The notes under the pieces are model-generated. The model was not told the origin of the DNA. It made no database searches and was given only the letters and a program-made list of their open reading frames with translations. Below are positions 6,339-12,007 of a stretch of 22,284 bases of DNA, piece after piece; position 1 is the first letter of the stretch; every line of letters begins with the position of its first letter. A program made the translations under genes and the position numbers. This DNA comes from a virus. The stretch spans positions 1 to 22,284 of the IMG/VR virus record IMGVR_UViG_3300037487_001693; one strand, written 5' to 3'.

Positions 6339-7182
6339 TGTGTGTGCTCAGTTGTTCAAACGGGGTGTGCAGGTGGCCGATTGGCTTTGCGCTGAGAAGT
6401 CCCCCGGTCATCTCAGCAACTCGGGCGCACGCCAGGTTGTGGTCGCGCTCCTTGAACGACAACCCGCCTCCCGTGCCAATGGTGTTGGCGTTGCGGCACC
6501 AGTTGCGCCACGTTGCTTCCCAATCGAGCTTTGCCGCGTCCTTGCCGCTCTTGGCTCGCCAGTAGTCCGCGAACTTCTCGCCCTCAAGGCGGATTTGCTC
6601 AGGAGGCCAGCCGCGATCTTTAACAGCCCACTGTCCCCAAGCTCTCGGCAACTCCCAGTCATCAGGCAAACGCTTGCCTTTTCGCTGGGCCGGCGCTTTA
6701 GCGGCGGCAACAACCTCAGTCTTACTTTGTAAGTCTGTATCTGCTTCTGCTTCTGCCTCTGCATTGTGTCTACCGCGATCTACAGTAGAAGATGTAGAAC
6801 TTTGTAGAACTTCCTTTTCGGCCTGTCTGCGCGAATTGATGTACTTGCGCTTGCTTTCCTTGATCGACTCTTCATCGCGGATCGCACGGTACTTCTCATG
6901 GTTCAGAAGCCGCCAGCCTCCATCAATCGGCTCGATGCGCCGGCCATCGTTGGCTGAGGTACGGCTGTACTTGTCGGGCGACAAAAAACACTGGATTGCG
7001 GCGTCTGCATCCTCAACAGGAACACGGGCACGATTAGCCAGCCCAGGCACTGAGGCCCACACGCGGCCACGGGCATCAGCCATCGCCAGCATCGTTATCC
7101 ACACAAGGCGCACGCGGTCTGGTTCACACCAGACTGTCGACTCAGTGATGGACGAAAACAGCTTTGTGAATGTCATGCTCAT
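6310..7182 (-). CDS. Replication initiator, gpO-like
   Basis: This is a 290-aa protein. The N-terminal 100 residues (MTFTKLFSSITESTVWCEPD, VWITMLAMADARGRVWASVP, LANRARVPVEDADAAIQCF) form the winged-helix domain seen in phage O/DnaD-like replication proteins, including the W-x-S-x-P-G-L-A step. A charged linker with a low-complexity AEAEAEAD run follows, then a C-terminal LPDDWELPRAWGQWA and EKFADYWRAKSGKDAAKLDWEATWRNW motif, typical of phage replication proteins. It should bind the phage origin and recruit the gpP-like loader encoded next. Phased GTAGAA repeats lie inside the linker-coding part (6785-6812) and an identical palindrome lies just upstream of the ATG. No Shine-Dalgarno sequence is seen. 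Confidence 0.85.
   Translation of the reverse strand: MSMTFTKLFSSITESTVWCEPDRVRLVWITMLAMADARGRVWASVPGLANRARVPVEDADAAIQCFLSPDKYSRTSANDGRRIEPIDGGWRLLNHEKYRAIRDEESIKESKRKYINSRRQAEKEVLQSSTSSTVDRGRHNAEAEAEADTDLQSKTEVVAAAKAPAQRKGKRLPDDWELPRAWGQWAVKDRGWPPEQIRLEGEKFADYWRAKSGKDAAKLDWEATWRNWCRNANTIGTGGGLSFKERDHNLACARVAEMTGGLLSAKPIGHLHTPFEQLSTHNDPFTIEMD
6735..6763. repeat. Low-complexity hexamer run in replication gene
   Basis: The plus strand shows repeated CTTCTG/CCTCTG units; on the minus strand this encodes the AEAEAEAD run in the linker of the gpO-like protein. It is a simple-sequence tract that could vary in length by slippage. In-frame change would only alter linker length. Confidence 0.5.
6779..6812. 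repeat. Phased GTAGAA repeats, candidate origin iterons
   Basis: Three GTAGAA copies start at 6785, 6795 and 6805, exactly 10 bp apart, so they face the same side of the helix. The last two are a perfect tandem 10-bp repeat TGTAGAACTT (6793-6802 and 6803-6812). The first is part of the 11-bp near-palindrome TCTACAGTAGA (6779-6789). They lie inside the coding sequence of the gpO-like protein, as lambda-type origins do inside O. The repeats are direct observation; the origin role is inference. Confidence 0.5.
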
Positions 7183-7188
7183 ACTGTG

Positions 7189-7214
7189 ATTCTACTGTAG
7201 AAAAAATTGTCTAC
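7189..7214 (-). promoter_or_regulatory. Putative promoter/operator of replication genes
   Basis: On the minus strand the hexamer TAGAAT (7194-7189) lies exactly 6 nt before the ATG of the gpO-like gene, so transcription from it would give a leaderless mRNA. It overlaps the 11-bp near-palindrome TCTACTGTAGA (7191-7201), the reverse complement of the copy inside the gene. A further TCTAC (7210-7214) pairs with GTAGA around an A/T tract. No good -35 is seen (TTGCAT is 20 bp away). Autoregulation by the replication protein is possible. Confidence 0.4.
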
Positions 7215-7230
7215 ATGCAAAACAGGCGAC

Positions 7231-7250
7231 AAAAAAAGCACCTAAGTGCT
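7231..7250 (-). terminator. Rho-independent terminator after methyltransferase
   Basis: On the minus strand a short hairpin AGCAC-TTAG-GTGCT (7250-7237) is followed by seven T. It would end transcripts coming from the helicase-methyltransferase genes before the replication genes. The stem is only 5 bp, so termination may be partial or open to antitermination. The rest of the gap, 7251-7349, shows no gene. Confidence 0.6.
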
Positions 7251-7349
7251 ATGTGTTGGCCATCAGTAGGAATTGCCGGCAGGCGCTGGTTCGCTTTTCG
7301 AGACGGTAGCTACTCCGCCCCTAGCCGGGTTCCCTTTCACTATCTACGA

Positions 7350-8228
7350 TTAGTCCTCAGCAAAAAACAAGTCGATGGTTTTTGCCTTTGCCGCAGCAAG
7401 ATTAGCCACCGCTTGCTTGTAGTAGCTGGCCTTCAACTCCACGCCGACAAAGCGCCGGCCCATCTCGGCGGCCACATAGCCTTCGCTTCCGATTCCCATG
7501 AAAGGCGACAACACAATGTCATCAGGATTGCTCCACAGCCTGATGCCGCGACGAATCACCTCGAGCTGCAGCGGGCACACATGGCGCTCGTCGTCGTGCT
7601 CGCGGGCGCTCATGTATTGCAGCGTATCGGATGGGTTGATGTCCATCCACACCGGGCTGGCGTAGCGCTGCCACAAGCTCACCGGGAACTCGTCGGCGGT
7701 GTGCGTGACGTGCTCCGACTCGCCGGGGCTGCGCATAGTGATGAGGTAGTCGGGGATGCCCATGCGGGTCATTTCGCTGCGCTCACGAATCGACTTGTGC
7801 AGCAGGCCCAGCGCCTTGGTGCGGGTCATGGCCGTCACCGGGTCTTTCCAGATCGTGGCCTTGCTGTGGAAGATGAAGCCGTGCTTCTGGAATGCACGGA
7901 TCAAGTCGCCGGGAAAGTCCTTGAGGCCGATGTGCCCGTCACGCTCTTTGCTGGCCGGCATGTCCATGCAGTGGAAGCTCACGTTGCGGCCAGGCTTCAT
8001 CACGCGCAGAAGTTCTTTGATCAGGTAATCGAAATGCTCGTAGAACTCGAAGTCGTTGCGCACGTTGCCCATGTCGTTAGGGCTGTTCGAGTAAACGTAA
8101 AGTGAAATGAACGGCGGCGAAAAGATGCTGTAGCCGATGGAGTGATCCGGCAGACCTTTGAGTACCTCGACGGAATCGCCACGGTAGGCGGCGTATCGCT
8201 CGGTCACGACTTGTTCAATGCAGTTCAT
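7350..8228 (-). CDS. DNA methyltransferase (N4-cytosine/N6-adenine, beta class)
   Basis: This is a 292-aa DNA modification methylase. The catalytic motif IV is SPPF at 37-40, near the N-terminus, and the AdoMet-binding motif I is SPFMGIGS at 241-248, followed by RRFVGVEL with the acidic residue of motif II. Motif IV before motif I, with the target recognition region between (about 100-220), defines the beta class. SPP[YF] is more often N4-cytosine, but N6-adenine is possible. It overlaps the helicase gene by 4 bp and has no restriction endonuclease next to it, so it is probably an orphan phage methylase protecting phage DNA from host restriction or regulating gene expression. Confidence 0.93.
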   Translation of the reverse strand: MNCIEQVVTERYAAYRGDSVEVLKGLPDHSIGYSIFSPPFISLYVYSNSPNDMGNVRNDFEFYEHFDYLIKELLRVMKPGRNVSFHCMDMPASKERDGHIGLKDFPGDLIRAFQKHGFIFHSKATIWKDPVTAMTRTKALGLLHKSIRERSEMTRMGIPDYLITMRSPGESEHVTHTADEFPVSLWQRYASPVWMDINPSDTLQYMSAREHDDERHVCPLQLEVIRRGIRLWSNPDDIVLSPFMGIGSEGYVAAEMGRRFVGVELKASYYKQAVANLAAAKAKTIDLFFAED

Positions 8229-10431: not shown

Positions 10432-10677
10432 TCAGCCTTCAACCGACCAGCCGCCCACGCCCGACAAACTGGCGCGTGCGTACTTGATCCGGCCTGCCTT
10501 GCGCATGGCCTGAAGGCGACGGTCAATCAGGCGCCACGACTGTTCATTGACCGAGTGCGGCAAACCCAATACACCAGCCGCCATGTCCTGAAGCTGTTTG
10601 GCGTTGTGCGGAGACCTGCCGGGGTTGCGTCGGATGTAGTCGCAAACCGAGTCATCAAGTTGCGCGAATTTGCTCAT
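10432..10677 (-). CDS. Winged-helix-like small protein
   Basis: This is an 81-aa protein coupled to cro by a 4-bp overlap. It starts MSKFAQLDDSVCDYIRRNPG, with a helix-turn-helix-like segment NAKQLQDMAAGVLG and RLIDRRLQAMRKAGRIKYAR, which is the recognition helix plus wing of a winged-helix fold (unlinked 'transcription is read from IKYAR'). It probably binds DNA and may work with Cro in early control. No close named family is assigned. Confidence 0.65.
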   Translation of the reverse strand: MSKFAQLDDSVCDYIRRNPGRSPHNAKQLQDMAAGVLGLPHSVNEQSWRLIDRRLQAMRKAGRIKYARASLSGVGGWSVEG

Positions 10678-10943
10678 GCGGCTTCCGTGCGGGCAAAGTC
10701 AACAGTGGGGCGCCCTTTGGGATGGGGCCATGCCTTGTCCTTGATGCGCGCCCACGGAACGTCCGGCCGGATTTCCTCAACGGTTACCGCTCCGCCCGTG
10801 GCGCGCTCGATGTCAACGCACCGGGCCTCCGGCACTGGGCGAATCTTGTTAACCCAAAAGGACAGATCGGAGGCGTGCGCCCCGATGGCCTGGCAGAGTT
10901 GGGATTGTCGCCCTCGTTGCTTGGTGTAGTCGGCTAGTAGCAT
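10674..10943 (-). CDS. Cro-like YdaS-family repressor
   Basis: This is an 89-aa protein that starts the minus-strand early operon, directly opposite the CI-like gene. Residues 8-45 carry an HTH (RGRQSQLCQAIGAHASDLSFW then VNKIRPVPEARCVDIE), followed by ATGGAVTVEEIRPDVPW. The 'RPVPxxRCxxIExATxGxVxxxExRPD' pattern is the signature of YdaS/Cro-type regulators. It should bind the operators between the divergent genes and shut off the repressor promoter. A -10-like TAAGAT lies 6 nt before the ATG with no Shine-Dalgarno sequence, so the mRNA may be leaderless. Confidence 0.88.
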   Translation of the reverse strand: MLLADYTKQRGRQSQLCQAIGAHASDLSFWVNKIRPVPEARCVDIERATGGAVTVEEIRPDVPWARIKDKAWPHPKGRPTVDFARTEAA

Positions 10944-11035
10944 GCAGCGATCTTAGCACCAAACTACCAACCAACGCAAGCACCATGTTCTCGGCCCGCT
11001 ACCATGACTCCGTACGCATTACGTATCGTGCTGGC
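10944..11035. promoter_or_regulatory. Divergent cro / cI promoter-operator region
   Basis: For cro (minus strand) a TTGCGT (10979-10974), 18-bp spacer and TAAGAT (10955-10950) give a promoter whose start would fall on the ATG. For cI (plus strand) TATCGT (11024-11029) lies 6 nt before ATG 11036; no -35 is seen, as expected for an activated maintenance promoter. Likely operators are the 13-nt near-palindrome TACGCATTACGTA (11013-11025) overlapping the cI -10, and repeated ACCAA units around 10958-10974 in the cro promoter. Confidence 0.55.
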
Positions 11036-11440
11036 ATGGACGTTGTTGCCGAGACCCGCCGTGCTAACCTGAACCTCTTGTTACAAGAGGTCGGGGCGGG
11101 GCGTGGCGATGCGGCCCAACTGTCTCGATTGACCAGCGTCAAGGCCCCGACCATTTCCCAACTACGCCGGCCCACGTTTTACAAAAACGGGGTTGAACGC
11201 ACGATGGGCGATGACATCGCCCGGAAACTGGAAAAGGGAATGGGCAAACCGACCGGCTGGATGGATCACCCGCACGAGGTGACTAGAGATGGCGACGAGA
11301 GCGAATTCCTACAGACCTACCGGGGGCTGACGGCCGAGCAGCGCGAGCACCTAGCGAAGCTGGCAACCATGCTGGCCCAGGCTAATAGAACGCCGGGAGA
11401 TGAACCGCCGCCAGCGCAACAGGGAAAACCCTCGCACTAG
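11036..11440 (+). CDS. Short CI-like phage repressor
   Basis: This is a 134-aa protein from ATG 11036. An in-frame ATG at 10985 would add 17 atypical residues and cover the operator region, so the shorter start is preferred. Residues 6-75 form an HTH domain: RRANLNLLLQEVG, then AAQLSRLTSVKAPTISQLRR as the helix-turn-helix, then GDDIARKLEKGMGKPTGWMD, a pattern typical of Burkholderiales phage repressors. There is no S24 peptidase domain, so SOS induction by self-cleavage is not expected; the C-terminus (EFLQTYRGLTAEQREHLAKL) may be a helix for oligomerisation. The Pro/Gln-rich tail is disordered. Confidence 0.85.
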   Translation: MDVVAETRRANLNLLLQEVGAGRGDAAQLSRLTSVKAPTISQLRRPTFYKNGVERTMGDDIARKLEKGMGKPTGWMDHPHEVTRDGDESEFLQTYRGLTAEQREHLAKLATMLAQANRTPGDEPPPAQQGKPSH

Positions 11441-11442
11441 GC

Positions 11443-11470
11443 TGTACAAAACAACAGTGTTCGATATAAT
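11443..11470 (+). promoter_or_regulatory. Promoter of the structured RNA
   Basis: A consensus -10 TATAAT (11465-11470) lies 16 bp after TGTACA (11443-11448), 4 of 6 matches to TTGACA. It starts 3 nt after the cI-like stop codon. Transcription would begin near 11477, at the 5' edge of the structured RNA. It is the best sigma70-like -10 in the window. Confidence 0.65.
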
Positions 11471-11476
11471 GGCCTC

Positions 11477-11616
11477 GCCGTTGGGTGAGACCGTGGCAAA
11501 ATTTCGACCTAGAGGGCCATCAAGCCTTCGCCGCATCGTGAACCGCAAGGTTCTGGCCGTGTAGAGGTACACGGACTGTCTCACCCACGATGCGACGAGG
11601 ACTTGATGGCCTTTTT
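11477..11616 (+). ncRNA. Candidate structured small RNA with own promoter and terminator
   Basis: There is no plausible gene here, but strong base pairing. Segment TGGGTGAGAC (11482-11491) pairs perfectly with GTCTCACCCA (11578-11587). A longer helix pairs 11515-11540 with 11586-11611: GGCCATCAAG/CTTGATGGCC, a bulged middle, and CGCATCGTG/CACGATGCG. The two helices interleave and share 11586-11587, so they form a pseudoknot or two exclusive states. In between are AACC-GCAA-GGTT (GNRA loop, 11541-11552) and CCGTGTA-GAGG-TACACGG (11557-11574). The long helix ends in TTTTT (11612-11616). It may be an antisense RNA in the immunity region, as C4 of P1 and sar of P22 are; I cannot match it to a known family by eye. 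Confidence 0.65.
11515..11616 (+). terminator. Terminator formed by the long helix of the RNA
   Basis: The GC-rich end of the long helix (GGCCATCAAG 11515-11524 with CTTGATGGCC 11602-11611) is followed directly by five T and G. The loop contains the two small hairpins. If 11578-11587 pairs instead with 11482-11491, the base of this helix near 11586 is disturbed, so termination could be conditional. Confidence 0.6.
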
Positions 11617-11931
11617 GCGTTGGTCGCCCACAGGCGCGTGATACGGCAAAGCGAGCATGCCCTTGCATCGGGGCGCACTGTGAAAAGACCGGCCGCCTTA
11701 CCTCGGGTGCGCGCCGTTCGGCCTGTCAGCTAGGGACCGAAGATGCGCTGGTGACTCCAGGGTGAAGACAAGCACCAGCGCGGAATGAATAGCTGCCTCA
11801 TGGGTACGCTGGGCTGCAACAGCCGGGCGAAGAGTTGATAAGCGATCCTCCGCTATCACCTCTTGGGCATTGCATCGCCTGCTGAAACTTACAAACTATC
11901 ACCCCACTGGAGGGTGCCCTCAAACAGGGGG
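11617..11931 (+). other. Non-coding, hairpin-rich region
   Basis: I see no credible gene in this 315-nt stretch. It contains several plus-strand hairpins: GGCCG/CGGCC spanning about 11691-11722, a 9-bp stem GCGCTGGTG/CACCAGCGC (11745-11753 with about 11772-11780), GGCTG-CAA-CAGCC near 11811-11824, TGATA-GCG/CGC-TATCA near 11836-11858, and CACCC/GGGTG near 11900-11916. It ends at a terminator. This is consistent with a long structured RNA or leader following the small RNA, but the fold is only hand-drawn. Confidence 0.4.
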
Positions 11932-11957
11932 GAGGCCTCTTTTTCGGCCTCTTTGTT
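11932..11957 (+). terminator. Rho-independent terminator
   Basis: GAGGCC (11932-11937) pairs with GGCCTC (11946-11951) across an 8-nt T-rich loop, followed by TTTGTT. It would end the transcript crossing 11477-11931 and isolate it from the plus-strand operon that begins with its own promoter downstream. Confidence 0.7.
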
Positions 11958-11978
11958 AGCGCCGAATGAAAATTAGTG

Positions 11979-12007
11979 TTGCGCTTTCCTTTGTGCTGCG
12001 CTAAAGT
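11979..12007 (+). promoter_or_regulatory. Promoter of the plus-strand accessory operon
   Basis: TTGCGC (11979-11984), a 17-bp spacer and TAAAGT (12002-12007) form a fair sigma70-like promoter. Transcription would start near 12014, giving a leader of about 37 nt with AGGAG before ATG 12051. Confidence 0.5.

Follow-up and report, generated by a model that had tools for sequence, protein, structure and literature searches.

What is encoded by the stretch of about 140 nt that follows a CI-like repressor gene in a viral contig? The window analyzed here comprises 22,284 bases of IMG/VR virus record IMGVR_UViG_3300037487_001693. The first-pass annotation had described this stretch as a compact structured RNA with two competing helices, and had proposed antisense control of the C4 or sar type or an attenuator. 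The element proved to be longer than described: conservation continues past 11616 to about 11870, indicating that the 140 nt are the first third, or 5' domain, of a predicted structured RNA about 390 nt long (Table 1). In the first relative, L003, the DNA is 96.5% identical over 430 nt (11440 to 11870) and the CI protein 79% identical; in L111 the CI protein is 70% and the DNA 71% identical over 304 nt. Since conservation peaks beyond the T-tract, at 11645-11867, the 140 nt are treated below as a 5' domain (domain A) preceding a core (domain B).

The promoter that had been placed directly after the CI-like gene was recovered, with 10 of 12 promoter positions matched (one such site found against 0.3 expected). 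The distance from the -10 element to helix 1 is 11-15 nt in all 13 sequences, and the promoter-like sites are strong in most of them. Those of L130 and L152 are weak and lack a -35 element (shuffle fractions 0.50 and 0.29). Both loci carry a repeated TAGCATSGC motif, also without a -35, which precedes the RNA as well as the next gene and might be a promoter specific to the phage; immediately before the motif lies a terminator-like hairpin.

Table 1. Features of the predicted RNA gene and its upstream context (window positions).
Feature	Position	Strand	Remarks
CI-like repressor	10985-11440	+	Upstream context, outside the RNA; phrog_12107 transcriptional repressor
Sigma70-like promoter TGTACA-16-TATAAT	11443-11470	+	Promoter-like sites at fixed distance 5' of helix 1 in 13/13
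Predicted structured RNA gene, ~390 nt	11477-11870	+	5' end deduced from promoter, 3' end placed where conservation stops
Helix 1, 5' arm TGGGTGAGAC	11482-11491	+	Exact pairing with 11578-11587
Helix 2, 5' arm, bulged	11514-11539	+	Pairs with 11588-11611
Inner GNRA hairpin GAACC-GCAA-GGTTC	11540-11553	+	
Inner GAGG hairpin CCGTGTA-GAGG-TACACGG	11557-11574	+	Shortened or replaced in other groups
Helix 1, 3' arm GTCTCACCCA	11578-11587	+	Abuts helix 2 3' arm
Helix 2, 3' arm	11588-11611	+	Pairs with 11514-11539
T-tract 3' of helix 2	11612-11616	+	At least five T in window, L003, L111, L132, L154
Linker hairpin GCCCT...GGGGC	11659-11674	+	Covaries in part
Helix CGGC/GCCG with covarying helix on top	11690-11716	+	CGGC/GCCG invariant in alignment A8
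Domain B hairpin TTCGGCCT...AGGGACCGAA	11717-11741	+	Double changes in 5/8 pairs
Domain B hairpin GCGCTGGTG...CACCAGCGC, loop AGGGTGA-GACAAG	11745-11781	+	Compensatory changes in L003, L111
Conserved strand TGAATAGCTGCC, then hairpin CGCTGGGC...GCCGGGCG	11786-11829	+	
3' hairpin, end CACCTCTTGGG (family consensus CACCCTTGGGGAACCTATG)	11830-11867	+	

Interleaved helices of the 5' domain

The 10-bp perfect helix described earlier (helix 1) is exact, and the GNRA and GAGG hairpins are both present; helices, hairpins and promoter all fall within one or two nucleotides of the positions given in the annotation. The bulged second helix is also there; it had been placed at 11515-11540/11586-11611, and is best drawn as in Table 1, where the 2-nt overlap with helix 1 is unneeded. 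The 144-nt fold has an energy of -67.8 kcal/mol compared with -46.6 ± 4.0 for shuffled sequences (z = -5.3; none of 200 shuffles as good). Forcing helix 1 gave -62.0 kcal/mol, a cost of only about 6 kcal/mol relative to the helix 2 fold.

A topology-specific scan, defined by two interleaved helices with abutting 3' arms, scored the window element at 35.2 against a shuffle maximum of 26.6. The same arrangement is found in 13 of 13 sequences, with scores of 27-35; the observed score was reached by one of 1300 dinucleotide shuffles, and the maximum over 120 random phage windows was 27.2. Of 14 negative-control loci, 13 had lower scores than the family; the exception was L143, a GC-rich chance locus (30.2) with no model match. 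Since most members were found without using domain A, this domain is a fair test of the family.

The sequences of helices 1 and 2 are almost wholly different between groups, and the pairing is maintained. Over the 13 sequences, 99.5% of 192 arm cells are paired, with 74 double changes, although the percentage alone is not independent because the arms in alignment A9 were picked per sequence for pairing. The weight is therefore carried by the shuffle test and by close pairs of sequences. Arm covariation was 1.09 compared with 0.27 in shuffled alignments and about 0.20 or less when pairs were slid. Between the nearly identical contigs L131 and L136, helix 1 changes from GTGGAAACC/GGTTTCCAC to GTGAGAACC/GGTTCTCAC by two compensated double substitutions; one A-T pair of helix 2 is T-A in L003, again with compensation, and in L111 helix 1 is GGGTAGGAC/GTCCTACCC against GGGTGAGAC/GTCTCACCC, despite only 71% DNA identity. 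These comparisons support the view that the interleaved helices are conserved and covarying, and in that sense the predicted domain is a pseudoknot.

The annotation had left the choice between a pseudoknot and a two-state switch undecided. The constant abutting of the 3' arms favours coexistence of helices 1 and 2 rather than alternation. In L131 and L132 the loop that separates the first arms spans just about 9 nt, a length that would not let both full helices stack coaxially in a straight line; the two may therefore lie side by side or exchange.

Homologues and the 3' core

Covariance-model, pattern and BLAST searches turned up viral contigs with homologues from at least seven phage groups that are unrelated to one another and differ in flanking genes. 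A covariance model of domain B (R1) matched other phage contigs with 43-178 bits and detected a second, paralogous copy in the phage of L111, on the opposite strand and adjoining tRNA-Arg and integrase genes. A degenerate domain B pattern combined with R1 recovered L128, L131/L134/L136, L132, L130/L141/L147, L152 and L148 (43-96 bits). BLASTN with L131 gave a short match in a deposited phage genome, MW202484.1, which is a divergent homologue by domain A and linker; domain A is a good fit and domain B a weak one (21.6 bits). The hypothetical protein annotated at 33533-33892 of MW202484.1 overlaps the RNA and is probably spurious. L112-L114 and most matches of the first pattern were discarded as chance.

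No full-length match was obtained by BLASTN of phages and plasmids. Among bacterial genomes, no match was found by the model in about 1,470 sampled or by exact pattern in 398; these large searches used strict filters and few candidates were scored. The bacterial genomes carrying CI relatives (31-39% identity) had no such RNA alongside. The family thus looks rare, or the filtered bacterial searches missed members. In Rfam 15 the window element had no above-chance match, the C4 (RF01695) and ROOL/GOLLD models included, and the ten homologue loci gave nothing but a tRNA gene at E<=1; with either gathering or permissive thresholds, the output was limited to a weak chance match and the tRNA. Neither Rfam nor a limited search of open papers contained a description of this RNA. 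These results support the earlier suggestion of an undescribed RNA family.

In the core, double changes occur in 16 of 32 pairs, a number reached by none of 500 shuffles, and the signal is lost on sliding the partner. The count was made on an alignment built without structure; the structure was itself the consensus that RNAalifold derived from this alignment, a choice that biases the count somewhat in its favour. A three-sequence fold had suggested that the 5' arm of helix 1 might instead pair with 11692-11703; this was rejected since it fails by inspection in L136, L132 and L128. A likeness to RNase P in short motifs (GGAAA-CCGG, TGAAT-GCTGCC), judged by eye, was dropped as well, there being no model match.

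Phage operators are often flanked by DNA inverted repeats, and the locus might on that ground be read as a DNA-level inverted repeat, or else as leftover coding sequence. Against this, the interleaved helices lie on one strand and show double compensatory changes, the promoter spacing is conserved, covariance models match the core and indels break the reading frame. We consider this reading scarcely credible.

Genomic setting and possible roles

The RNA adjoins cI in the window, L003 and L111, so its placement in the immunity region held for these phages; this is only one among several locations, since other copies adjoin an attP tRNA or replication genes, follow the small terminase gene or lie within the head module. 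No protein family immediately beside the RNA is common to different groups. In the window the Cro position (10674-10943, minus strand) is occupied by a YdaS-type regulator (Pfam PF15943). TTAGCGC/GCGCTAA repeats lie between cro and cI and, in the window, at a second promoter-like site 3' of the RNA (window 11956-12004; L003 ~3180; L111 ~4927), and are likely CI/Cro operators. In L111 they also cover the -10 of the RNA promoter, before 5460, and this copy may therefore be repressed in lysogens. The second copy in the L111 phage (L121) has a complete tRNA-Arg(TCT) at 1341-1417 beside the integrase, probably the attachment site. An HTH and HNH-endonuclease-like gene (7067-7924, minus strand) lies near the RNA in L152 and was not seen beside other copies.

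C4 (77 nt, P1/P7) and sar (68/69 nt, P22) pair with antirepressor mRNA (PMC12197685), and the position next to cI in three phages is what the present RNA shares with them. An antisense RNA that sets immunity by keeping an antirepressor mRNA, or some other phage mRNA, from being translated is nevertheless very improbable. Pfam and PHROGs scans of ten proteins each (part of the window ORFs, in an incomplete contig) showed no antirepressor domain, and the best duplex with the 40 gene-start regions of the window was no better than with shuffled RNA (fractions 0.28 and 0.57). C4 gave no Rfam match, the remaining members map to packaging, head, attachment-site or replication regions, and the helix arms are conserved as each other's partners.

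The attenuator proposal is best considered with the wider possibility of a cis-acting leader controlling the downstream operon by antitermination or attenuation, either like HK022 put or through a helix 1/helix 2 switch and the T-tract. The RNA lies directly 3' of a promoter-like site in every member, precedes a rightward recombination operon in the window, and would form helix 1 at low energetic cost; in five sequences helix 2 is followed by at least five T, and in L131 and L130 the next gene is co-directional and begins soon after the RNA. On the other hand, the T-tract terminator of the annotation, present in the window, is not conserved, being missing from six members (L121, L128, L130, L131, L148 and L152), and the best-conserved part of the RNA is 3' of the supposed terminator; an intrinsic attenuator would instead have a conserved hairpin and T-tract at the transcript end. 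In L128 the neighboring genes are on the other strand, and L121 is followed by the other-strand tRNA gene; with no co-directional gene immediately downstream, the RNA in these two members is not the leader of an adjacent gene. The window also has the additional promoter-like site with CI-operator-like repeats downstream of the RNA. HK022 put RNA is a cis-acting RNA of about 70 nt with two stem-loops (PMC9378689); the present RNA likewise directly follows a phage promoter, but is about 390 nt long, pseudoknotted and stand-alone in two members. A leader role is thus unlikely for the family, and may apply in several members, such as L131 and L130, where the next gene is close and co-directional.

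The differing genomic positions, the two diverged copies in one phage and the HNH-like gene of L152 would also be consistent with an RNA element, mobile or selfish and resembling a ribozyme or guide, that inserts between phage genes. This seems improbable: no constant nuclease or transposase adjoins the RNA, no Rfam ribozyme, intron or HEARO model matched, and each copy has its own promoter-like site.

A putative stand-alone phage RNA

Comparison of the sequences indicates that compensatory changes have preserved the promoter-like site, domain A and the core in unrelated phages and in varying genomic positions. The reading that we prefer, with a probability of roughly 0.6, is that of a stand-alone, trans-acting phage RNA gene whose structured product is about 390 nt long. 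Transcription would start about 5 nt 5' of helix 1 and continue through helix 2. Judging from its anatomy, the RNA may work in trans through its folded shape, serving as a scaffold or in an RNA or RNP complex, and probably neither by base-pairing to mRNA nor as leader of the next gene.

The nearest analogues are the ROOL and GOLLD RNAs, whose structures have been reported (PMC12286853). These too are phage- or prophage-borne stand-alone RNAs of elaborate structure with pseudoknots, and the present RNA is likewise independent in viral contigs, with a promoter-like site in each and no constant partner gene. The likeness is of kind only, there being no sequence or Rfam model match. Many GOLLD members exceed 800 nt (PMC12286853), so that the present RNA is shorter; one copy has a tRNA neighbor, which is a point of resemblance to ROOL/GOLLD, and most are not near tRNAs, which is a difference. 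By analogy, it would be an accessory RNA that is made together with phage genes and lacks an encoded protein partner, and would likely work in a ROOL/GOLLD-like manner.

We give about even odds to a broader proposal, that the family represents a new class of autonomous phage RNA in which a pseudoknotted 5' domain, free in sequence and fixed in shape, is joined to a conserved core, and which passes from one phage to another, unrelated one with no partner protein and works as an RNA complex. To our knowledge, large structured RNAs have been described from phages in only a few cases, and what ROOL and GOLLD do is still open. The present family is short enough to be probed and solved, has a promoter-like site to hand, and its shape-conserved, sequence-free pseudoknot permits simple arm-swap mutants, so that whether such RNAs help the phage would become directly testable.
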